Source: a virus. Taken from it: a DNA stretch of 40,824 bases. Below are positions 5,949 through 26,745 of this stretch, one piece after another. Location of the stretch: IMG/VR virus record IMGVR_UViG_3300005578_000008, positions 1-40,824 of that record. One strand, given 5' to 3'. Under the pieces are notes generated by a model. The model did no database searches and was not told the DNA's origin. It saw only the letters and a list, made by a program, of their open reading frames with translations. Every line of letters begins with the position of its first letter. The first letter of the stretch is position 1. The position numbers and the translations under genes were made by a program.

Positions 5949-7636
5949 AAGCAGCAAAAAAACGTGCTCGCGATCGGCGCAAAAGCGACGTGATCGCGAC
6001 GCCGAAAAGGCGCAGCGCACGAGGAAAAAAAACCAGCCTGGATTCCCGCCTGCGCGGGAATGACAAGCCCCGCTCAGCACTCAGCACTCAGCACTCAGCA
6101 CTAAAAAAACGCTCAGTCCTCAGCACTCAGTCCTCAGCATTTAAAGTGCGCGCCAGCTACGAAGCGGCATCGTCCGGGCGGCGGCTGCGCCTGTGGCAGC
6201 CGGGCATGATCGGCCCCAACGACGCGGTCCTGCGCGATCTCACGCAGCTCCGTGATCGGAGCCGCGACCTGGTCCGAAACAATCCCTGGATATCGCGCGG
6301 CATTTCGTCATGGGTGGCAAACGAGATCGGCTGCGGCATCACGTTCAAGGCACAGACGCCGGATCAAGAATTCAACAAGCGCGCCGATGATCTCTGGGAT
6401 CGACAGACGGAATATTTCGACGCCGACGGCATGATGGATTTTCAGGGCATGCTCGCGCAGATCGTGCGCACGCGGCGCGCGGCCGGGGAGATCTTCATTC
6501 GCCGGCGCGTCCGCACGCCCGACGGCACCTTGCCCGTGCCGCTGCAATATCAGCTCCTCGAGCCCGAGTTTTGCCCGCACGATCAATCGAACTTCTCGAC
6601 CTTCCCCGGCCGCCAGGTAAGAGCGGGAATCGAGTTCGACGGCATCGGCCGGCGCCGCGCTTATTTCATGTACCGGACACACCCCGGCGATTCGTTCGTC
6701 AATCAGATCAATGACCTCGAAATCGTTGCGGTCCCGGCCTCGGAGATACTGCACCACTATGCGATCCTGCGGCCGGGGCAGATCCGCGGCATTCCCGCGA
6801 TCGTGCAGGCGCTCGTCAAGGCGAAAGAATTCGACGAGTACGACGACGCGGAACTGCAGAGAAAGCGCAATCGCGCCGCCTATACGGGCGTGCTGCGCCG
6901 CGCGACGTTCGGCGAGGACGATTACAAATACGATCCCTTCACCGGCGAGCTCCTCGAGACCGACAACGCCGGCGTCGGCATTCAAAACATCGAGGGCGGC
7001 TCGATGATCCAATTATTGCCGGGCGAGGACGTCACGATGTTCGAGGGCGACACGACCGGGGCGGGCTATAGCGATTTCATCCGTCAGCAGCTCCTCGGCA
7101 TCGGCGCCGGCCTCGACGTCCCGGCGGAGTTCGTGAGCGGCGATTTCTCCAAGCTCAACGATCGCACCCTGCGCGTGGTGCTGGCCGAGTATCACCGCGT
7201 AATCGAGCAGGATCGCTGGCAATTGACCATCCCCCAGGTGTGTTATCCGATCTGGCGCGACTTCATCGACATCGCGATTCTTTCCGGGGCGCTGCCGACG
7301 CCGGCGGCCTATGTGACCAGCCGCGATCAGTATTTAAAGGTCGCATGCCATCCGGAGGGCTGGCCGTATATCCACGAGCTGCAGGACGCCAACGCCGACG
7401 TCATCAACTGGAAAAACGGGCTGACTTCGCGCAAGCGGATCGCCGCCGAACGCGGTGAAGATATCCGCGAGATCGACCAGGAAAACCAAGAAGATCAAAA
7501 TCGCGCCGAGGATTTAGGGCTGAAATACGGCGAGGATAAGCCCGCCAACGCGAACGACGGGAATGCCCAACCAGCGGACCAGAACGCGGCGGCGCGGCTG
7601 AAAAACTTTCGCGCCGTGAATGCATCGTATTATTAA
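5945..7636 (+). CDS. Portal protein (lambda gpB family)
   Basis: 563 residues. The portal family signature begins at VRASYEAASSGRRLRLW (about residue 68), with later family-like stretches such as RDLVRNNPWISRGI, RRRAAGEIFIRRR-type sequence and QYQLLEPEFCP. It forms the dodecameric DNA channel at one capsid vertex. The first 66 residues are unusual: 31-41 derive from an ATTCCCGC palindrome and 42-66 from a heptad array (SALSTQHSALK...), preceded by a very basic stretch. The ATG at 5945 overlaps the upstream stop, so this repeat-derived N-terminus is probably translated unless an internal start is used. Confidence 0.9.
   Translation: MKAAKKRARDRRKSDVIATPKRRSARGKKTSLDSRLRGNDKPRSALSTQHSALKKRSVLSTQSSAFKVRASYEAASSGRRLRLWQPGMIGPNDAVLRDLTQLRDRSRDLVRNNPWISRGISSWVANEIGCGITFKAQTPDQEFNKRADDLWDRQTEYFDADGMMDFQGMLAQIVRTRRAAGEIFIRRRVRTPDGTLPVPLQYQLLEPEFCPHDQSNFSTFPGRQVRAGIEFDGIGRRRAYFMYRTHPGDSFVNQINDLEIVAVPASEILHHYAILRPGQIRGIPAIVQALVKAKEFDEYDDAELQRKRNRAAYTGVLRRATFGEDDYKYDPFTGELLETDNAGVGIQNIEGGSMIQLLPGEDVTMFEGDTTGAGYSDFIRQQLLGIGAGLDVPAEFVSGDFSKLNDRTLRVVLAEYHRVIEQDRWQLTIPQVCYPIWRDFIDIAILSGALPTPAAYVTSRDQYLKVACHPEGWPYIHELQDANADVINWKNGLTSRKRIAAERGEDIREIDQENQEDQNRAEDLGLKYGEDKPANANDGNAQPADQNAAARLKNFRAVNASYY
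6038..6064. repeat. ATTCCCGC...GCGGGAAT palindrome inside portal gene
   Basis: CTGGATTCCCGC-CTGC-GCGGGAATGAC-type copy, translated in frame as part of the portal N-terminus. Confidence 0.8.
6071..6139. repeat. Heptad array inside portal gene
   Basis: Units of TCAGCAC/TCAGTCC only, the orientation that is open in every frame, with a short AAAAAAAC interruption. Encodes LSTQHSA-type peptide. Confidence 0.9.
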
Positions 7637-7878: not shown

Positions 7879-8928
7879 ATGAAGAACAGCTGGTATCGAA
7901 TCCAAGCAAAAGACAACGAAGCCGAGGTGCTCATCTACGACGAGATCGGTTTTTTCGGTGTCAGTGCCAAAGACTTCATCAACGATTTTCAAAAAATTTC
8001 CCCCGACGCAACCATCAATCTGCGCATCAATTCTCCCGGCGGCGAGGTCTTCGACGGGCTCGCGATCTTCAATTTGATCCGCGCGCATAAGGGCGAGGTC
8101 ATCACCACCATCGACGGCCTGGCCGCTTCGATGGCGAGCGCGATCGCGCTCGCCGGGAACAAGGTCATCATGCCCGAGAACGCTTACATGATGATCCACA
8201 ATCCCTGGGGAATCGCGATCGGCGACGCGCAGGACATGGCCGACATGGCGGACTTTCTCGAAAAGCTCAACGGCACGCTCGCCAATATCTACGTGAAAAA
8301 AAGCGGCAAGGAACAGGACGAGATTCGAAATCTGATGGATCAAGAGACCTGGCTCACCGCCGCCGAGGCGAAAGATCTCGGCCTTGCCGACGAAGTGAGC
8401 GAAGCAAAAAAGCTCGCCGCGCGCGCCAACTGGAAAAGTAAATTTCAAAAACTACCGATCCCGGTGGAAGAAATAAGTCCTGAGTCCCAAGTCCTGAGTC
8501 CTGAGTCAGCGCTCAGCACTCAGCGCTCAGCACTCAGCACTGAAGAGATCCGAGCGCAAGCGGAGGCGCAAGCGGAAGCTCGCGCGAAGGAGATCGTTAC
8601 GCTGTGCACCGCCGCGGGGATCCCGGACGGCGCCGCCAGTTTTCTCGAAAGAGGCTTCAAGGTCGAAGACGTCAAGGCCCGGCTCGCCGATGCGGACCAG
8701 ATCCGCGCGCGCTGCCTCGCGGCCAAACTGCCGGAGCGCGCCAACGCCTATATCAAGGCGGGCATGACGGTCAGCGAAGTTGCGAACGAACTGTTCGACA
8801 CCTTGATCGCGCGCCAGGGCGAGGAGATCGACAACAAGCTCCATCCGTCGAACGAGCGGCGCCGCGCAGTATCGGCGCCGGTGGTCGATATCGCCGAGAT
8901 CTATCGAAAACGAAATCTCAGAAAATAG
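7879..8928 (+). CDS. Head maturation protease, ClpP-like, with scaffold-like C-terminus
   Basis: ATG 7879 has AAAGGA seven bases upstream. Residues 1-180 are a ClpP-type (S14) serine protease: INSPGGEVFDGLAI, catalytic Ser84 in GLAASMAS, His107 in MMIHNP, and a likely catalytic Asp154. Such proteases trim the scaffold during procapsid maturation. Residues of about 220-349 are helical and charged (QAEAQAEARAKEI and on), resembling the scaffold half of lambda protease-scaffold fusions. Between the halves, residues of about 198-221 are an in-frame heptad array, placed exactly in the interdomain linker where an insertion is best tolerated. First gene after promoter-attenuator element 2. Confidence 0.85.
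   Translation: MKNSWYRIQAKDNEAEVLIYDEIGFFGVSAKDFINDFQKISPDATINLRINSPGGEVFDGLAIFNLIRAHKGEVITTIDGLAASMASAIALAGNKVIMPENAYMMIHNPWGIAIGDAQDMADMADFLEKLNGTLANIYVKKSGKEQDEIRNLMDQETWLTAAEAKDLGLADEVSEAKKLAARANWKSKFQKLPIPVEEISPESQVLSPESALSTQRSALSTEEIRAQAEAQAEARAKEIVTLCTAAGIPDGAASFLERGFKVEDVKARLADADQIRARCLAAKLPERANAYIKAGMTVSEVANELFDTLIARQGEEIDNKLHPSNERRRAVSAPVVDIAEIYRKRNLRK
8475..8541. repeat. Heptad array in protease-scaffold linker
   Basis: GTCCTGA units, a short turn, then CTCAGCA/CTCAGCG units; all in frame. Confidence 0.9.
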
Positions 8929-8960
8929 GGCGCAGCGGGTCGAGCATGCTCGACCCCTAC
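8928..8960 (+). repeat. Palindromic repeat with nested second palindrome
   Basis: Starts GGGCGCAGC but continues as GGGTCGAGCATGCTCGACCC plus CTAC, a hybrid of two stem types. It starts at the stop codon of the protease gene. Confidence 0.8.
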
Positions 8961-8994
8961 AGTCCCCGACAATTTATTTTAGGAGGAAAAAATC

Positions 8995-9369
8995 ATGAGC
9001 GTAACCGAATCGAACCACGACGGCGAGTTTATTCTATCCGAGTCCGCCGGACACCGATCGCGCAAGAACGTCACCATCGTTTCCGGCCAGGATCTCGCCG
9101 CGGGAACGGTGGTCGGAAAAATTACCGCGACGGGCAAATACAAAGCCTATGACGACGACAACGGCGACGGCAGCGAAGCGGCCGCGGGAATTCTCGTCTG
9201 CGCCGTCGACGCGACCGACGGCGATTTACCAGGCGTGATCATCGATCGCGACGCGGAAGTGAAGGACGATCTCCTCACTTGGGCAACCAGCAACGACTCG
9301 ACCGATATCACCAACGGCACGGCCGATCTCGAATTGCTCGGGATCCGCGTGCGCGTCAACTACACCTAA
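8995..9369 (+). CDS. Capsid decoration protein (lambda gpD family)
   Basis: ATG 8995 follows a strong AGGAGG site. The 124-residue product shows the gpD-family pattern: an N-terminal arm, SRKNVTIVSGQDLAAGTVVGKIT, then YDDDNGDGSEAAAGILVCAVDATDG in parts, and a closing RVNYT strand. Trimers of this fold cap the expanded capsid and stabilise it. It lies between protease and major capsid protein, as in lambda. Confidence 0.85.
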   Translation: MSVTESNHDGEFILSESAGHRSRKNVTIVSGQDLAAGTVVGKITATGKYKAYDDDNGDGSEAAAGILVCAVDATDGDLPGVIIDRDAEVKDDLLTWATSNDSTDITNGTADLELLGIRVRVNYT

Positions 9370-9437: not shown

Positions 9438-10481
9438 ATGGCAGACATTTTAGATTTTTTTGGCGGCGATCTTTTCAAGATGGCCTCGCTTACGACCACG
9501 ATCAATCATGACGACTACAAGCCCGACCTGATCGGGGGCATGGGGCTGTTCGAGGAAGAGGGCGTCGCGACGCGCAATGTCGTCGTCGAAGAGGACGGCA
9601 ATAGCCTCAAGCTGGTGGCGACCGCGCCATGGGGCGGCGTGCCGGCCTCGCGCGAGAACGGCAAGCGCGTCGGGCGACCGTTCATCGTGCCGCATCTGCC
9701 GACGCGCGACAGCATCACCGCGGAGGAGCTGCAGGGCGTGCGCGCCTATGCCGCCGGCATGACGCCGGCGCAAACCTTGATGACGATCCAGGCGCTGCGC
9801 GATCGCAAGCTCAACAACATGCGCGCCGATCTCGAAGCCACGCTCGAATATCATCGCGTCGGCGCGATCAAGGGCCTGGTGCTCGACGCTGACGGCAGCT
9901 CGACGATTTACGATCTGTTCAGCGAATTCAACGTCTCGCAGCAAACCCACGGCATGAACCTCGACGATTCAGCCACCGACGTGATCACGCAGATCCGCGA
10001 GGCGATCCGCAAAAGTCTGAACGCGCTCAAGAACCAAGGCGTGAGCGGATTCGCGGCGCTCTGCGGCGATCAATTTTTTGATCTTTTGACCGGCCACCCG
10101 TTCGTCAGAAACACCTATCTCAACTGGACCGCAGCGGCCGAGCTCCGCAACGAGCATCGCGCCTATGGCGTGTTCGACTTTAACGGTGTGCGCTGGATCA
10201 ACTATCGCGGCAGCGTGGGCGGAGTCGACTTTGTTGAAACCGGCAAAGCGAGCCTTTTCCCGCTCGGCGCGCGCGGTCTCTTCAAGGGCTATTTCGGCCC
10301 GTCGGATTATATCGATCGCGTCAATCAGATCCCCGATCCGAACGGCGCGCCGATCGAAGTGCGCTCGGAAATGAAACCCATGGGCAAGGGCGTCGACCTG
10401 GAAGCACAGTCGAACCCGCTCTATCTCTGCACCAAGCCGGCGGCAGTCGTTCTGCTCGACGCAACCGAGAGCGCCAGCTAA
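9438..10481 (+). CDS. Major capsid protein (lambda gpE family)
   Basis: ATG 9438 follows AGGAGAAACAG. The 347-residue protein has family features: an N-terminal LTTTIN-type start of the mature region, APWGGVPASRENGKRVGRPFIVPHLP and ITAEELQGVRAYA, NMRADLEATLEYHRVGAIKG, and RNTYLNW in the C-terminal half. It adopts the HK97-type fold and builds the icosahedral shell. No repeat insertion is present, in keeping with strong structural constraint. Confidence 0.92.
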   Translation: MADILDFFGGDLFKMASLTTTINHDDYKPDLIGGMGLFEEEGVATRNVVVEEDGNSLKLVATAPWGGVPASRENGKRVGRPFIVPHLPTRDSITAEELQGVRAYAAGMTPAQTLMTIQALRDRKLNNMRADLEATLEYHRVGAIKGLVLDADGSSTIYDLFSEFNVSQQTHGMNLDDSATDVITQIREAIRKSLNALKNQGVSGFAALCGDQFFDLLTGHPFVRNTYLNWTAAAELRNEHRAYGVFDFNGVRWINYRGSVGGVDFVETGKASLFPLGARGLFKGYFGPSDYIDRVNQIPDPNGAPIEVRSEMKPMGKGVDLEAQSNPLYLCTKPAAVVLLDATESAS

Positions 10482-18691: not shown

Positions 18692-18753
18692 CAGTCCTGA
18701 GTTCCGAGTCCTGAGTCCTGACTCTCAGCACTCAGCACTCAGCACTCAGGACT
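18692..18753. repeat. Heptad hairpin between baseplate genes
   Basis: GTCCTGA/GTTCCGA left arm and CTCAGCA right arm; followed directly by a TTCACCAC arm. Confidence 0.9.
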
Positions 18754-18756
18754 ATT

Positions 18757-18790: not shown

Positions 18791-19153
18791 ATGAAAACCA
18801 CGAGCGCGCCGCTGGCCCGGCATATCGATCAGGAGACGACGACGCTCGTCATGTGCGCGAAGCTCATCTTGACGAAATATCAACCGCAGATCCTGCGCAT
18901 TACGCAGAGCAATCCCGTGCTAATCGAAACCGTCTGGGCGCACGGCTACGTCGACGGCGATACCGTGCAGATCTTCGGCGTGCGCGGCATGACGGCGCTC
19001 AATCGGCAATTTTTCACGATCCTGCGCGTCAATGATTTTCTCTTTCAGATCGACGTCGACGGCACCGTGCTGCCGGTTTACGAGGGCAAGGGCGAGGCGC
19101 GCAAGGTGCTCGCGTTCACCGAATTCGTGCGCGATCTCACTTTGGATTTTTGA
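18791..19153 (+). CDS. N-terminal part of a split DUF2163 baseplate protein
   Basis: The start MKTTSAPLARHIDQETTTLVMC-type sequence and the end VLAFTEFVRDLTLDF match the first 60 or so residues of DUF2163 (TIGR02218, GTA gp13 type), where the sequence normally continues directly into the next strand. Between them is one FCCH-like domain (VWAHGYVDGDTVQIFGVRGM). The stop TGA follows a T5 run and overlaps the next ATG (TGATG), and the rest of DUF2163 is found in the next gene. The two chains presumably associate, or are joined by frameshifting. Confidence 0.7.
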   Translation: MKTTSAPLARHIDQETTTLVMCAKLILTKYQPQILRITQSNPVLIETVWAHGYVDGDTVQIFGVRGMTALNRQFFTILRVNDFLFQIDVDGTVLPVYEGKGEARKVLAFTEFVRDLTLDF

Positions 19154-22065
19154 TGACGACCTACTATCTCGCCAAAACGGGCAGCGACTCGAACAACGGG
19201 CTTTCGCTCGCGGCGCCGTTTTTGACCTTGGCGCACGCGGCAGCGGCGATGTCTTCCGGCGATCAACTGCTGATCCGCGCCGGCACGTGGACCGAGGATG
19301 ACATTATCTTACCGAGCGGATCATCCTGGGCCGCCGCGACGACGGTGCAAAACTATAACGGCGAAACCGTGATCTTCCGGCCGGGCTCCAACAGCACGTT
19401 CGATCTCGGCCGATCGGCGCCGCACAGCTACATCATTTTCGACGGCACGGACGTCGACAATCGTGGTCTGATTTTCGACGGCAGCGACATACACGTGGAC
19501 GCCCTGATCGGCATGAATCAGGGAAGTCATCACATCCGCCATATTCGCTGCGAAATCCGCAATGCCCCGCTGAACGGATTTCAATTTGCCTGGGGAAATA
19601 ACAACGGACTCAGCTCCGATTTTAACGAGATCCTTTACTGCGAGATCCATCACTGCGGATCGTATCGCTATGTGACCCTGGCGAGCGGCGCCGCCGGCGT
19701 CGATTACGATCAATTCATCGGCTTCGGCGAGGGAACCGGACACGCGATTTATTGCACGACGTCGTTCAATACGATCGACCACAACGTCATCCATCACAAC
19801 GGCGAATACGCGGTGCATCAATACAGCTTCGATCATCCGATGAGCGCCAATCTGGTGAGCTTCAATGTTTGCTATGAGAACAATCAGGACACGTCTCGCT
19901 ATGGGCACCGAAACGGCGGCGCGATCATCGTCACCGGAGTTGGCAGCGTCGCTCTCAGAAACGTCTGCTATTTGAACGACAACGGCATCGACGTCGGCGC
20001 GGGATACGGCGGCGCGGTCAACTGCAAGGTTTTGTTCAACACGCTGTACTCGAACAACGGCGACGGCGACGGTCACGCGCTCCAGGTCAATCCAAGCGCC
20101 TCGGGCACGCTGGTGATCGGCAATCTGATCCGCGGCACGCACGACGGCGGCGATATCGTCAATCTTGGATCCTCTTCGCTGATCCAAAACAATTGGCTAT
20201 CGAGCGATGCCGATCCGAAATTCGTCGATGCCGGCGGCGGCGATTTTCATCTCGAGTCCGACAGCCCGTGCATCAACGCCGCGCCGATCACAAATTCGGT
20301 CGCCTATACCGGCGCGGCGCCCGATTTCGGCGCGTATGAATTCGGCGGCGAGGATCTGCCCATCGTCGACGTCACGATCACGCCGAACCCGATCCCGCCG
20401 GGCGGCTCCGGAACCGTCGACTATGACAGCGACGGCGACAGCGTCGACATTCCGGGCGTCGGCACGGGGCTGCCGCCGTCGGGATCCTTCGTGATCACGC
20501 CGAGCATTGCGCAGACGCTGACGATCATCGCTTACAACGTGAACGGTTCGGTCCAGGTCGAGCACGCGGTCGGCGTTTTTTCTTCGGGCCTGCTCTACAA
20601 AGCGGCGATCGGCTACATGCCGCGCTCGATCAAAGCCGGCGCCGATCTCTCCGTCGACAACATGGAAATCGTCGGCCTGATGCCGAACAAAGTGAAAGCG
20701 CTGGCGCAGGGGCTTTTGCTCGAAGGATTGAGCGACGAGGACCTCGATGTCGGCCGCTTCGATCACGCGCGCATCGAGCTGTTCTATGTCAATCACCAGG
20801 ACCCGGCCGCTGGGCGAATCATTCTTCCCGGCAGCGGCAACATCGGCGAGATCAAGCTGCGCCGCGGCACGCATGAAACCGAATTCCGCGGGCTGACGAT
20901 TTTTCTGCAGCAGACCTTTGGCGATGTTTACTCCAAGATCTGCCGCGCGCGCCTGGGCGACGATATCAACGACTATCGGATCGCCGGCTTCGGCTGCCAC
21001 GTGCGGCTCGATCCGCCGTTCTGGCGGCCGGAAACAAGCTACACCGTGCGCCAGCCCTACGACGCCGCGACCGGCTCGGTGATCAAGCCCAACATTTACA
21101 ACGGCCGGCATTTTGTCTGCGTGACCGCGGGAATTTCGTTATCCATCGAGCCCACGTGGAATTTTCAGATCGACGGCCTCACCAATGACGGCGTCGTGGT
21201 TTGGAAAACCGTTCAGGCGCTGACGGTTTTCGGCGCGGTGACGGCGGTGAAAGACACGCGCTTTTTCAGCGACGCATCGCGCAGCGAACCGCCGACCAGC
21301 GGCACGGGCGTCAACAGCGGCACCGCGCAGTATGCGATCCGCGACGCCAACGTCGCCGGCGGTTATTTCGAGCTCGACGGCGATCTGGTGAGCTATTTTC
21401 TGATCGGCAACACTTTCACGGTGACGGGATCGATCGCCAATGACGCGAGCTACACCGTGACCAATGCGCTTCTCTCCAGCGGCAACACGCGGATTTTTGT
21501 CGGCAGCATTCCGGACACGCGCGCGGGCGGCTTTATCACCGCGCCGTTCGCGGTGGCGACGGGATTTTTCACCTTCGGCAAATTGACTTTTTTGACCGGC
21601 GCGAACATCGGCATCAGCAAGGAAGTGAAGGACTTCCGCTTGAGCGTCTATGCGCTGATCGACGTCGACAGCGGGACGAATCTCTTTGTGCTCGACGGCG
21701 ATCAGAGCGATTTTTTTTCGGTCGGGCAGCGCTTCGCCGTGGCGGGATCCACGGGCAACGACGGCGCATACGATATCAGCGCGGTCTCGTACAATTCCGG
21801 CGCCGATCAGACCGAGATCACCGTTTCTCAGACGATCGCCGATGACACGGTCGACGGTTCGGTCCTGGCCGGGCCGGGCGAGTTCGAGATGTTCGAGCGT
21901 TTCCCGTTCACGATCGAGGTCGGCGACGAATACATGGTGCAGGCGGGCTGCGATCTCTCGAAAGAAATCTGCAAAGCGAAGTTCGATAACATTTATAATC
22001 GGCGCGCCGAGGACGAGATCCCCGGGACCGACGTCGCGCTGCTATTCCCGGATCGACAAGTATAG
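19153..22065 (+). CDS. Beta-helix domain fused to the C-terminal part of DUF2163
   Basis: 970 residues from ATG 19153. Residues 1-400 are a right-handed parallel beta-helix: YYLAKTGSDSNNGLSLAAPF at the start, GDQLLIRAGTW, then turns such as HNVIHHNGEYAVHQY and NDNGIDVGAGYGG, the plan of phage depolymerases and pectate-lyase-like proteins. DUF2163 resumes near 475 (LLYKAAIGYMPRSIKAGADLSVDN) and ends with FPFTIEVGDEYMVQAGCDLS-type sequence and DNIYNRRAEDEIPG. A W-rich module and two FCCH-like domains interrupt it. It probably sits at the tail tip and may recognise or cleave surface polysaccharide; catalytic residues cannot be assigned. Confidence 0.75.
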   Translation: MTTYYLAKTGSDSNNGLSLAAPFLTLAHAAAAMSSGDQLLIRAGTWTEDDIILPSGSSWAAATTVQNYNGETVIFRPGSNSTFDLGRSAPHSYIIFDGTDVDNRGLIFDGSDIHVDALIGMNQGSHHIRHIRCEIRNAPLNGFQFAWGNNNGLSSDFNEILYCEIHHCGSYRYVTLASGAAGVDYDQFIGFGEGTGHAIYCTTSFNTIDHNVIHHNGEYAVHQYSFDHPMSANLVSFNVCYENNQDTSRYGHRNGGAIIVTGVGSVALRNVCYLNDNGIDVGAGYGGAVNCKVLFNTLYSNNGDGDGHALQVNPSASGTLVIGNLIRGTHDGGDIVNLGSSSLIQNNWLSSDADPKFVDAGGGDFHLESDSPCINAAPITNSVAYTGAAPDFGAYEFGGEDLPIVDVTITPNPIPPGGSGTVDYDSDGDSVDIPGVGTGLPPSGSFVITPSIAQTLTIIAYNVNGSVQVEHAVGVFSSGLLYKAAIGYMPRSIKAGADLSVDNMEIVGLMPNKVKALAQGLLLEGLSDEDLDVGRFDHARIELFYVNHQDPAAGRIILPGSGNIGEIKLRRGTHETEFRGLTIFLQQTFGDVYSKICRARLGDDINDYRIAGFGCHVRLDPPFWRPETSYTVRQPYDAATGSVIKPNIYNGRHFVCVTAGISLSIEPTWNFQIDGLTNDGVVVWKTVQALTVFGAVTAVKDTRFFSDASRSEPPTSGTGVNSGTAQYAIRDANVAGGYFELDGDLVSYFLIGNTFTVTGSIANDASYTVTNALLSSGNTRIFVGSIPDTRAGGFITAPFAVATGFFTFGKLTFLTGANIGISKEVKDFRLSVYALIDVDSGTNLFVLDGDQSDFFSVGQRFAVAGSTGNDGAYDISAVSYNSGADQTEITVSQTIADDTVDGSVLAGPGEFEMFERFPFTIEVGDEYMVQAGCDLSKEICKAKFDNIYNRRAEDEIPGTDVALLFPDRQV

Positions 22066-22069
22066 CCGG

Positions 22070-22100
22070 AGTGCTGAGTGCTGAGGACTGAGTGCTGAGA
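22070..22100. repeat. Heptad array
   Basis: Four GTGCTGA/GGACTGA units in one orientation. Confidence 0.9.
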
Positions 22101-22123
22101 AAGATTAGAGCCGATTGCTGTTT

Positions 22124-22642
22124 ATGAACTACGAATTTTTTCGCTTCGTGCTTTGGTTTCTCGGCACCGATTTTCGCTACCTCGCGAGGAGCAACACGAT
22201 CGGCGAGTTCTACGACTACGGTTCGGTGCTCTCGCAAATCATCTATCGCGAGAAGGCGTGGCAGGCCGAGCTGTTCATGCTGCGCCCGAACACAGGTTTC
22301 CCGCGCGCTCATCGCCATCCCGACGTCGACAGCTATGAATACGTGCTCTCCGAGCACGTACCGCTGATCGTGGACGGCGCCGATCTCTCGGAAGGAAAAC
22401 CGAATCACGCCGCGCTCTATCCCGTCGGCGCCGCCGACTGGCACAGCGTCGGCGATATTCCGCGCGGCGGCATGTTCATCTCGTTTCAGGAATGGAAAAA
22501 CGGCCGAACGCCGACGAGCGTCGGCCTTAACTGGGAAGGGACGCCGGTGAGCGAGCAGCATCGCGCGCTATTGCGCAGCCCGGATGCGAAATGGATCAAG
22601 ACGATCCGGAAAGAAAAAAAAGTGCTGAGTCCTGAGTCCTGA
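22124..22642 (+). CDS. Cupin-like protein within the baseplate operon
   Basis: ATG 22124; TTG 22115 is an alternative. Residues of about 50-130 read as a cupin barrel: PRAHRHPDVDSYEYVLSEHV fits cupin motif 1 (HxH, then an acidic residue) and LYPVGAADWHSVGD fits motif 2 with its histidine, so a metal site is likely. The last residues (VLSPES) and the stop come from a heptad array, so the native C-terminus is altered. GTA-type baseplates have no cupin at this position. It could be a virion component, a sugar-nucleotide enzyme or a sensor. Confidence 0.6.
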   Translation: MNYEFFRFVLWFLGTDFRYLARSNTIGEFYDYGSVLSQIIYREKAWQAELFMLRPNTGFPRAHRHPDVDSYEYVLSEHVPLIVDGADLSEGKPNHAALYPVGAADWHSVGDIPRGGMFISFQEWKNGRTPTSVGLNWEGTPVSEQHRALLRSPDAKWIKTIRKEKKVLSPES

Positions 22643-22692
22643 GTCCTGAGTCAGATCCGGGCTCAGCACTCAGCACTCAGCACTCAGGACTT
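22621..22692. repeat. Heptad hairpin supplying a stop codon
   Basis: Four GTGCTGA/GTCCTGA units (with the stop of the cupin gene), turn TCAGATCCGGG, then four CTCAGCA/CTCAGGA units. One of the clearest two-armed examples. Confidence 0.92.
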
Positions 22693-22702
22693 TTGAAGCG
22701 AG

Positions 22703-23140
22703 ATGGCTACACGGCAACAAATAATTGAAGAGGCGCGATCGTGGAAGGGCACGCCCTGGCAGCATCAGGGAAGGCTCAAGGGTGTTGCCGCCGATTGCGC
22801 CGGCCTGGTGATCGGCACCGGGCAGGCCTGCGGCGTGGTCGTCGGGAATAGCTGGGCGCTCTCGACCGGCTACGGCATGCAGCCCGACACGATCAAGATG
22901 AAAGCCGCGCTCGACGAGCTGTTCATCCGGATACGCAAAGACGAAATGAAAGCCGGCGATATTCCCTGGCTTCGCGCCGGCGCGAAGGCGCAGCATCTCG
23001 GCATCGTCGCCGAAGACGGCGCCGGCCGGCGCACCTTGATCCATGCGACGAACTTCAAGCGGATCGAGGAGCTGCCGATGGAAGCGGCCGTGAACGATCG
23101 CATCGTCGCCGTTTATCGCTTCAAGGGGCTCGAGGACTAA
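22703..23140 (+). CDS. NlpC/P60 tail peptidase (GTA gp14 type)
   Basis: ATG 22703. The 145-residue protein starts with RQQIIEEARSWKGTPWQHQG, followed by the catalytic Cys32 in ADCAGLVIG, His98 in AQHLGIV and a third polar residue at His114 (IHA). This is the pattern of phage NlpC/P60 proteins (TIGR02219), which cleave peptidoglycan cross-links for tail entry. It lies directly before the hub gene as in GTA clusters. Confidence 0.85.
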   Translation: MATRQQIIEEARSWKGTPWQHQGRLKGVAADCAGLVIGTGQACGVVVGNSWALSTGYGMQPDTIKMKAALDELFIRIRKDEMKAGDIPWLRAGAKAQHLGIVAEDGAGRRTLIHATNFKRIEELPMEAAVNDRIVAVYRFKGLED

Positions 23141-23141
23141 A

Positions 23142-25472
23142 ATGTCAGAGCTGGCACTGATCGCCGCACCCCTGGGCGCTGCCGAAGCATCGGCCGGGGC
23201 CGTCGCCGTGGCGGGCGGTATCGCAGCGACCACGCCGATCGCGGCGGGCACCGCGGCCGCGATCACGGCGGCCTCGAGCTTTTCTCTCTCGACCCTGTTC
23301 AGCGGATTTTCGCTCGCGTGGCAAATCGGCTCGACCCTGTTCTCGCTGTTCCACGGCGCCGGGCAGAGCATGACGGGACCGCGCTTGAAGGACGTGCACG
23401 TCCAGAGCGCCGCCTTCGGCACCCCGATCAAAAGATTCTGGGGCATCGATCGCATGTCCGGCGAGCTCGTCTGGATCGGATCGGACGGCAAAGGCGGGCG
23501 CGGCATCCGCGAGCACAAGCACAAGGTCAGCGCGGGCAAGGGCAAGGGCGGCGCGACGTCGATCTTTTATGCCTACGACGCCGACTTTGCGATCTCTATC
23601 CACGGCGCTTCCATCCCGCCCGGCGCATCTGCGGGCGTGATCCGCATCTGGGCGGGACCGAAACTCATTTACGACGTGAGTGCCGACGCGAGCCTGCAGG
23701 GGCTGATCGGCACCGGGCAGAATCTAAACGAGCAGGACGGCAGCGTCACGTTTTACGACGGCAACGAGAGCCAGCAGCCGCCGGCGCTGATCGAAGCGCT
23801 CGCCGGGGCCGGCAACAGCTCGGCTTATAGAAATCAATTTCTCGCGGTGTTTCAGAATTTCGACGTCACGCAATACGGCTCAATCCCGCAATTTTCCTTC
23901 GAGTGCTACACCGACGGCGACGACGAATTTCGAGCGCTCTTGACCTACGACACGCAGCACAAAGCAGCGGACGACGCCGGCGCGCGCATTTCCTGGAGCT
24001 ACGTGAGCCCGAGCGGCGAGATCGACGTCCTGATCGGCCACAACAACACCGACTTCAGGAGCATCCAGGGTCCGACCCAGCGCGATCCCGGCCAGCCCGT
24101 GTGGCGCATGTTTCATCTGACGCCCGACGGCGCGATCACGCGCGAGGATCTCGCGAACAGTTGGCCGGCGACTCCGCCGGGCAACGGCGAGGCGGTCGGC
24201 GTCTCGGATGAACCGATTATGGTTTGCGGTTGGCTCAACGACACCGTTTCGATCATCCGTCCGGGGAAACCGATCGTGCAAATTGTCGGGACGCCGCCGG
24301 GCAGCGTCTACATTCCCTACATGATGTTCACGAAAAAGGGCGACGATATCTGGATCGGCAACGACGGCAACTGGGTGCGCGGCCTCGAGCGCGTGAACGT
24401 CGAGACCGGGAATGTCCTCAACTGGCAGACCGACGCCTACAGCGCGACGATGTTCGACACCTACGGTCTCAGTCTCGGCTATCAGATCGGCGACGATTTT
24501 CTCTGGTATCTCACCTGGCCCAACAGTCCGCTCACCGGCGATTCGCAGCTCCTCGTGAAGCTCGATCCCATAACGCTCGAGGTCGCCGGTTACGTCGATC
24601 TCAAACCCGCCGGCCTTTTGCGCCCGCCCGACGGCGACCTCTACGTCTTCAGTTTTTTCGTCGAGAACGATTCGAGCGTTTTTTTCATCGGGACAGGCTC
24701 GTTCGGTCACATCGGGTTTTATCACTGGGACGGAACCACGATCAGCAAGCTCGGCGAGGCCGAAAGCGCCGGGACGCCGGGCGGATCGACTCTCTTCGTG
24801 CGCAACGGCATCTGGTATGTGGGGTCGAGCGGCGCCTGGGGCAGCTTCGACATCGATATCCGCGTCTATGGGCCGGGCGTCGAGGCGCGCTGCTGCCCGC
24901 TCTGGAAGATCGTGCGCGATATCTCGATCGCCTGCGGCCTCGACGAATCCGAGATCGACGTGAGCGAGCTCACCGACTGCGTGCAAGGTTACACGATCGA
25001 CCAGCAAATGACCGGTCGCGACGCGATCCTGCCGCTGCAGCGCTACGGATTTTTTGACGGGCGCGAGAGCGATATGGTCCTGCAATTTCCCAAACGCGGG
25101 CACGCCCCGAGCGTGACGATACCCGAAGACGATCTTGCCGCGCGGCCGTCGCTCGACGCGCCGCTTCCCGATGCGCTGGCGATCACGCGCGGCCAAGAGA
25201 CCGAGCTGCCGTTTCTCGTCCACGTGCGCTTCAAGGATCAACACGCGAGCTATCAAACCGGACATGCCTACTCGGCGCGTCTCACCAGCGAATCGCAAAA
25301 TCAGCTGATCGTTGACGTGCCGATCGTCATGAGCGCCGACAAAGCCAAACAGATCTCCTATGTGCTCGCGGCGAACTATTGGCTCGAACGCGCGCCGAAA
25401 GAGATCGTCGTGTCGCGGCGCTATCTGCTCGTGGACGCGGCCGATCCGCTCAATGTCGAGGTGGCAGCATGA
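23142..25472 (+). CDS. Tail hub / host-specificity protein, N-terminal part (GTA gp15 type)
   Basis: 776 residues. The N-terminus is Ala/Gly-rich and hydrophobic, followed by the hub signature GPRLKDVHVQSAAFGTPIKR with a WGIDRMSGELVW continuation. Near residues 340-570 is a run of repeats (DDIWIGNDGNWVRG, DDFLWYLTW, GDLYVFSFF, NGIWYVGSSG) that looks like a beta-propeller inserted in the hub. The hub resumes with CCPLWKIVRDISIACGL-type sequence and RDAILPLQRYGFFDGRESDM, and stops at DPLNVEVAA. The remaining C-terminal part is in the next gene, separated by a heptad array. The hub closes the tail and contacts the receptor. Confidence 0.8.
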   Translation: MSELALIAAPLGAAEASAGAVAVAGGIAATTPIAAGTAAAITAASSFSLSTLFSGFSLAWQIGSTLFSLFHGAGQSMTGPRLKDVHVQSAAFGTPIKRFWGIDRMSGELVWIGSDGKGGRGIREHKHKVSAGKGKGGATSIFYAYDADFAISIHGASIPPGASAGVIRIWAGPKLIYDVSADASLQGLIGTGQNLNEQDGSVTFYDGNESQQPPALIEALAGAGNSSAYRNQFLAVFQNFDVTQYGSIPQFSFECYTDGDDEFRALLTYDTQHKAADDAGARISWSYVSPSGEIDVLIGHNNTDFRSIQGPTQRDPGQPVWRMFHLTPDGAITREDLANSWPATPPGNGEAVGVSDEPIMVCGWLNDTVSIIRPGKPIVQIVGTPPGSVYIPYMMFTKKGDDIWIGNDGNWVRGLERVNVETGNVLNWQTDAYSATMFDTYGLSLGYQIGDDFLWYLTWPNSPLTGDSQLLVKLDPITLEVAGYVDLKPAGLLRPPDGDLYVFSFFVENDSSVFFIGTGSFGHIGFYHWDGTTISKLGEAESAGTPGGSTLFVRNGIWYVGSSGAWGSFDIDIRVYGPGVEARCCPLWKIVRDISIACGLDESEIDVSELTDCVQGYTIDQQMTGRDAILPLQRYGFFDGRESDMVLQFPKRGHAPSVTIPEDDLAARPSLDAPLPDALAITRGQETELPFLVHVRFKDQHASYQTGHAYSARLTSESQNQLIVDVPIVMSADKAKQISYVLAANYWLERAPKEIVVSRRYLLVDAADPLNVEVAA

Positions 25473-25473
25473 G

Positions 25474-25541
25474 AAGTCCTGAGTGGCGAGTGCTGAGTGC
25501 TGAGGCTCGGAACTCAGAACTCAGGACTCAGGACTCAGCAC
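25474..25541. repeat. Heptad array separating the two hub genes
   Basis: Composite form GTCCTGAGTGGCGAGTGCTG with GGCTCGGAACTCAGAACTCA and a further CTCAGGA/CTCAGCA run. Nearly identical cores lie at 32406 and 32904. It stands between hub halves that are one chain in related phages. Confidence 0.9.
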
Positions 25542-25545
25542 CGGG

Positions 25546-26745
25546 GTGGGCGGAATGACGACTCGTCGTATTCCGCTGCGCATTAGCGAGGTGGGGATTG
25601 GCGCCGAAGGCATCATCACCTTGCGCGGCTTCGACGAAGATCCCGCGCTCTACAATTCGAACGCGATCGGCGATCGGGTATCGCGCCCCGGCTATCCGAA
25701 CGAGAACGTGCGCGCGAACGGCTCGACGATCCTGCGGTTAATGGACATCACGACCTTGCGCGACGAAGACGACGGCCCCGGGTTTTATGTCGCGGTGCGC
25801 GGCGCGCTCGACACCTGGTCGGCGGCGATCCTGTTCGAAAGCCCGGACACGACGGTCGACTATCTGCCGATCACGTCGCTCGATCAGCAGGCGGCGATAG
25901 GCTTCACGCGCACGGTGCTGCCCGACGGATCGTCGACGACCTGGGATTACAACACGGTCGACGTCGAGTTGATCGGCGGGACCCTCGAGAGTCTCAACGC
26001 CGACGACGCGCTGCGCGGCGAAGTCGCTTATCTGATCGGGAACGAAGTGGTGCTGTGTCAGGAAGTGACGCAACTGAGCGCCAACGTGTGGCGCTTGACC
26101 GGCCCGCTGGTGCGCGGTTGGAAGGGCACGGAATGCAAGATGGCAAGTCACGTCCTGGGCGAGCGCTTCATCGCTCTGGGATCGACCATCACCCGGCGCA
26201 TTAACGACGAGCTCAGCGATCTCGACGTCGCGCGCAATTTCAAGGCGGTCACGTCCGGCCAAGCGATCGACGCCGCGCAGGCGGTCCCGTTTACCGACAC
26301 CGGGGAATCACTGCGGCCGTACTCGCCGGTCGATATCGACGGCATTTTCGACGGATCGAACAACGTCGTGATCACCTGGCGGCGCCGCTCGCGCCTGTGG
26401 GGCCGCAACGGGCGCGACTTTTTCGATCCGCCGCTCGCGGAGGCCTCGGAAGCATACGAGATCGACATTCTTTCCGACGACGAGATTGAGGTGCTGCGCA
26501 CCCTGAGCGCTTCCACAGCGACGGCGACCTATGCGATCGCCGACCAGACCACCGACTTCGGCGGCGCGAAGGGATCGAATCTGCACGTCAACATTTATCA
26601 AATCTCGGAAACCGTCGGCCGCGGCTGCTGCGGTCATGCGATCCTTTATCCGGACGGTATTCGTCCCGGGCCGTTCGATCTGCAGTTCGAAGACGACAAC
26701 GTAATCCAGTTCGAGGACGATGAACCTTTGGAGGTTGAGCATTAA
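25546..26745 (+). CDS. Tail hub protein, C-terminal part
   Basis: GTG 25546 (ATG 25555 is an alternative) after GGGGTGGGCGGA. The start TTRRIPLRISEVGIGAEGII followed by TLRGFDEDPALY is the internal continuation of GTA gp15-type hub proteins, not a usual N-terminus, and fits directly onto the end of the previous gene. Later parts (GFYVAVRGALDTWSAAILFE, VRGWKGTECKMASH, YSPVDIDGIFDGSNNVVITW) match the distal hub domains. It must assemble with the N-terminal chain if the baseplate is to form; the frames differ, so simple readthrough cannot join them. Confidence 0.75.
   Translation: MGGMTTRRIPLRISEVGIGAEGIITLRGFDEDPALYNSNAIGDRVSRPGYPNENVRANGSTILRLMDITTLRDEDDGPGFYVAVRGALDTWSAAILFESPDTTVDYLPITSLDQQAAIGFTRTVLPDGSSTTWDYNTVDVELIGGTLESLNADDALRGEVAYLIGNEVVLCQEVTQLSANVWRLTGPLVRGWKGTECKMASHVLGERFIALGSTITRRINDELSDLDVARNFKAVTSGQAIDAAQAVPFTDTGESLRPYSPVDIDGIFDGSNNVVITWRRRSRLWGRNGRDFFDPPLAEASEAYEIDILSDDEIEVLRTLSASTATATYAIADQTTDFGGAKGSNLHVNIYQISETVGRGCCGHAILYPDGIRPGPFDLQFEDDNVIQFEDDEPLEVEH

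Follow-up and report, generated by a model that had tools for sequence, protein, structure and literature searches.

The megatron, an RcGTA gp15-type tail protein, is to judge from homology encoded end to end in two pieces (23142-25472 and 25555-26745) in the virus record IMGVR_UViG_3300005578_000008, a layout that very probably goes back to a single, older gene fission, with two cistrons giving rise to one baseplate protein and a heptad array being added between them later. In RcGTA-like tails, the megatron serves as the gate and as the attachment site of the fibres; it is a single chain in the solved structures, the RcGTA-type protein being present in the baseplate in three copies per virion. 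The window analyzed here comprises all 40,824 nucleotides of the record, and the features at the junction are as follows:

23142..25472, + strand: megatron chain 1, 776 aa, frame 3 (product P0001)
25470..25472, + strand: chain 1 stop codon TGA, C-terminal end ...DPLNVEVAA-TGA
25475..25541, + strand: heptad array, 67 bases, AGTNCTG followed by CTCAGNA units
25555..26745, + strand: megatron chain 2, 396 aa, frame 1, conserved ATG start (product P0002)

Two adjacent genes tile one megatron

The two-gene layout, with a change of frame and the array in between, had been described in a first-pass annotation of the window and was confirmed from the open reading frames and the sequence. Both products match phrog_4271 (1309 positions) consecutively, P0001 from position 19 and P0002 over positions 943 to 1305, and no family profile came closer to either half than PHROG 4271 (E 1e-74 and 5e-68). 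Alignment to RcGTA gp15 gave the same picture, with a chain 1 profile (A7) matching residues 1-210 (i-Evalue 7.7e-42) and 760-945 (1.9e-23) of 6tba and ending at RcGTA gp15 residue 945, and a chain 2 profile matching residues 951-1302, its position 6 corresponding to residue 951. The chains cover consecutive parts of both references, with no missing stretch, as expected from the first-pass annotation.

Chain 1 contains the iris/penetration and adhesin-like parts, the N-terminal region being homologous to RcGTA 1-210, followed by a peripheral region that has diverged and by the bulk of the central domain, which it covers as far as the position matching RcGTA residue ~948; homology to the central domain is also evident from PF13550 (Phage-tail_3) at aa 620-770 (75.8 bits, cut-off 23). 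The remaining ~40 residues of the central domain lie on chain 2, together with the C-terminal fibre-binding domain, which is recognized by PF23666 (Rcc01698_C) at aa 113-206 (61.9 bits, cut-off 27). A departure from a canonical megatron is that the domains do not all reside on one polypeptide but are distributed over two genes, in four genomes. The split protein is probably a two-chain variant of the megatron that works like one.

The peripheral region (23919-24881; P0001 aa 260-580) does not match its RcGTA counterpart, shows only weak similarity to beta-propellers, and is poorly conserved, with 12% of positions identical across the four split genomes. At the other end of the protein, an acidic, FED-rich C-terminal tail (chain 2 aa 361-396; 26635-26742) is shared by the members of the split clade, whereas the aligned fused homologues lack it.

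Upstream of chain 1, two further tail genes were recognized:

19150..22065, + strand: true hub, gp13-type, with Phage_phiJL001_Gp84_N and Phage_BR0599
22703..23140, + strand: NlpC/P60-like tail peptidase in the gp14 position, a weak match below the Pfam cut-off that is supported by phrog_329

The order hub, peptidase, megatron (19150-22065, 22703-23140, 23142-26745) is that of RcGTA-type tails, with one extra gene, 22115-22642, between the hub and the peptidase. The term hub properly denotes the gp13 type and megatron denotes gp15 (PMC7296036). Thus, where the first-pass annotation spoke of a split hub, a large tail-tip gene is indeed split, but its name is megatron, and the gp13-type hub is the neighbouring gene 19150-22065.

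Two codons are candidate starts of chain 2, GTG 25546 and ATG 25555. Conservation identifies the ATG as the better one, because an M(T/A)TR start at that residue is shared by three relatives; it lies 82 noncoding bases, array included, from the chain 1 stop. Neither a second intact megatron nor a further Rcc01698_C domain beyond chain 2 was found within the 40,824-nt record. Because the genes are separate, tile one chain, and have no second copy in the record, a working baseplate would be put together from two chains.

The same split in relatives without the array

Three other genomes with a split megatron, IMGVR 3300044769_000034 (L009), 3300044472_000066 (L042), and 3300046690_000339 (L061), share 45-61% identity with the window, and the gene neighbourhood is conserved in the first two. 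In all four genomes, chain 1 stops at the same residue position (...DAADPxNxxVAA-stop) and the restart residue is identical as well, the relatives beginning with M(A/T)TR. The junctions themselves differ. In L009 (53/61% identity), the halves overlap by one base, TAATG (gap -1); in L042 (45/58% identity), they overlap by 4 bases, ATGA (gap -4); and in L061/L048 (49/58% identity), a 2349-base gap is filled exactly by a complete 782-aa N6/N4 DNA methylase gene. No intron or other Rfam RNA was detected at the gathering threshold at the junction of the window, L061, L042, or L009.

The methylase gene (L061:8164-10512) is bounded by the direct repeat GGCTTAAATG and holds two out-of-frame ORFs (8775-9368 and 9810-10238), of which the former shows weak HNH/zinc-ribbon matches. 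Separately, the genes for the peptidase and megatron chain 1, which are one base apart in the window, have an extra 187-aa ORF (L009:5165-5728) between them in L009.

These junctions bear directly on the first-pass proposal that a megatron gene still undivided in the lineage of this phage was broken by the array. The array does sit between the halves, the frame changes there, and arrays of the same type have been inserted elsewhere in the genome, even within genes; however, no heptad array occurs anywhere in the L009 (33.7 kb), L042 (48.5 kb), or L061 (79.9 kb) contigs, all three of which are split at the same residue. Given also that the split clade has one origin, breakage by the array would call for three array losses leaving no trace, and we consider it barely credible; as the cause of the split, the array is rejected by L009, L042, and L061. 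Relatives that lack the array and nonetheless have two genes here, which the first-pass annotation had itself named as counterevidence, thus exist, and they overturn its account of the cause only. Its two-chain outcome holds: the genes are separate, they tile a protein that is a single chain in other phages, and the same split recurs in three relatives. A sequencing error that conceals a single frame is excluded, as four independent contigs are split.

The halves could alternatively be joined by translational frameshifting or ribosome bypassing, such that the virion holds one chain. A -1 shift could fuse the frames in L009 and L042, where they overlap by 1 or 4 bases, but the halves are parted by 82 bases with the array in the window and by a complete gene in L061, where neither frameshifting nor bypassing is a plausible way of joining them, and chain 2 possesses a conserved ATG of its own. 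Such joining therefore seems very unlikely, and production of two chains is the favored reading.

A probable single fission nested among single-chain megatrons

The megatron is one chain in 18 of the 18 public phage records inspected, which represent about 14 host genera, are mostly of cultured phages, and were judged by their annotated gene tables. The same is true of 16 further, more distant IMG/VR relatives, some of them near-duplicates, which were judged from open reading frames. Among the 26 megatrons in a midpoint-rooted tree, the four split members form one clade with a support of 100/100, nested among the single-chain forms, and none of 500 label shuffles yielded as few changes between the split and single states as the tree. 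This nesting points to fission rather than fusion as the direction of change, and the presence of the same split in array-free relatives, with all four genomes in one clade, argues for one older fission; the split clade is a small sample of four genomes, all metagenomic. No close relatives of chain 2 were found among the bacterial genomes searched.

We propose that the megatron gene, until then undivided, was split on one occasion in the ancestor shared by this phage and its three uncultured relatives, when it acquired a stop codon overlapped by a restart codon; this state would still be visible in L042 (ATGA) and L009 (TAATG). Both halves would have been kept in place and used as separate chains, both of them presumably in the virion. 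In the line of this phage, the array would be a later arrival between stop and start, probably through an insertion that duplicated the ATGA overlap to either side of it, and in L061 a DNA methylase gene would have been inserted at the same megatron junction.

Heptad arrays as later additions

About 25 heptad arrays of AGTNCTG/CTCAGNA units are scattered over this phage genome between positions 872 and 39215, mostly at gene junctions, and none is present in the three closest related contigs. Three of them (18693-18755, 22069-22100, and 22621-22691) occupy gene junctions at which the genes of a relative overlap by 4 bases. Because arrays elsewhere thus sit at overlaps of relatives, and because no array is present at the megatron junction in the three relatives, comparison of the contigs identifies the array at 25475-25541 as a secondary insertion into a junction where the stop and the start were already present. 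It is flanked by a copy of ATGA on each side, although the copy is only four bases long and is in part to be expected where one gene must end and the next begin. By parting the overlapping stop and start, the array should weaken translational coupling. Its RNA could form an imperfect hairpin (-39.6 kcal/mol, z -2.4), and a 30-base stretch of it was absent from the bacterial genomes searched.

Other arrays lie in frame inside protein genes (872-971, 2716-2747, 8476-8541, and about 6073-6139), with orthologues in the L009 or L042 contig that have no such array. In ORF 168-1142, the array amounts to a 36-residue in-frame insert.

Place of the break and proposed docking of chain 2

The central domain spans residues 745-984 in RcGTA (PMC7296036) and 904-1130 in R4C (PMC10276861). 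The break maps to ~946-948 in RcGTA and ~1088 in R4C, which leaves about 37-43 residues of this domain beyond it, and chain 2 residue 11 aligns to R4C 1098, which places the boundary as in RcGTA. Two strands (8-15 and 21-27) are predicted with low confidence at the start of chain 2, so that the break precedes a predicted beta-hairpin; in the structural models, the first 40 residues of chain 2 have a pLDDT of 37-47, and the chain 1 model (pLDDT 32) was too poor and was left out. Residues 1-44 of chain 2 are 43% identical in all four split genomes, compared with 45% in the rest of the chain. Being conserved like the rest, although by RcGTA numbering they belong to the domain of the other chain, these residues appear to be still under selection.

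Because sequence mapping puts the break within the central domain and ahead of the predicted beta-hairpin, chain 2 probably docks by completing the fold of the chain 1 central domain in trans, with its first ~40 residues supplying the hairpin and the fibre-binding module thereby being held without a peptide bond. A broader reading, to which we give somewhat less than even weight, is that this phage clade carries a megatron naturally split inside a folded domain, with the hairpin of the second chain completing the first, and that a module held in this manner could be exchanged or released as a unit. Were chain 2 instead an independent protein or a relic, no longer part of the baseplate, its short acidic tail (aa ~361-396) might be a sign of this; yet fibre-binding homology persists over its full extent, with conservation that is even between it and the central-domain hairpin, and no other Rcc01698_C domain is present in the record. 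We regard that alternative as improbable and retain chain 2 as a baseplate component.

Comparison with known systems

As a phage gene split, this case is ordinary; as a natural two-piece baseplate protein, it is moderately interesting. Without the array as the cause, the original claim loses its most striking part, and the two-chain outcome remains. A stable two-gene megatron would show that a covalent link to the fibre-binding part is unnecessary, and the four different junctions show that the new gene boundary became an insertion site, for the array as well as for the methylase. Within the search wording used, neither the heptads nor a split megatron were found to be described in the literature.

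RcGTA gp15 (Rcc01698; PDB 6TBA/6TEH; PMC7296036) has the same domain order, and the two chains align to its residues 1-~948 and ~946-1304; it differs in being one chain and in having a peripheral domain without a sequence match in chain 1. The megatron of vB_DshS-R4C (PDB 8GTC; PMC10276861) is the structure that the chain 2 model resembles most closely (Foldseek E 1.2e-14) and also matches chain 2 in sequence (E 1.2e-17), but is one chain of 1447 residues. In Microcystis phage Mwe-JY26, the gene order after NlpC/P60 is the same as here, whereas the corresponding gp86 (PHROG 4271) is a single gene of 1163 residues.
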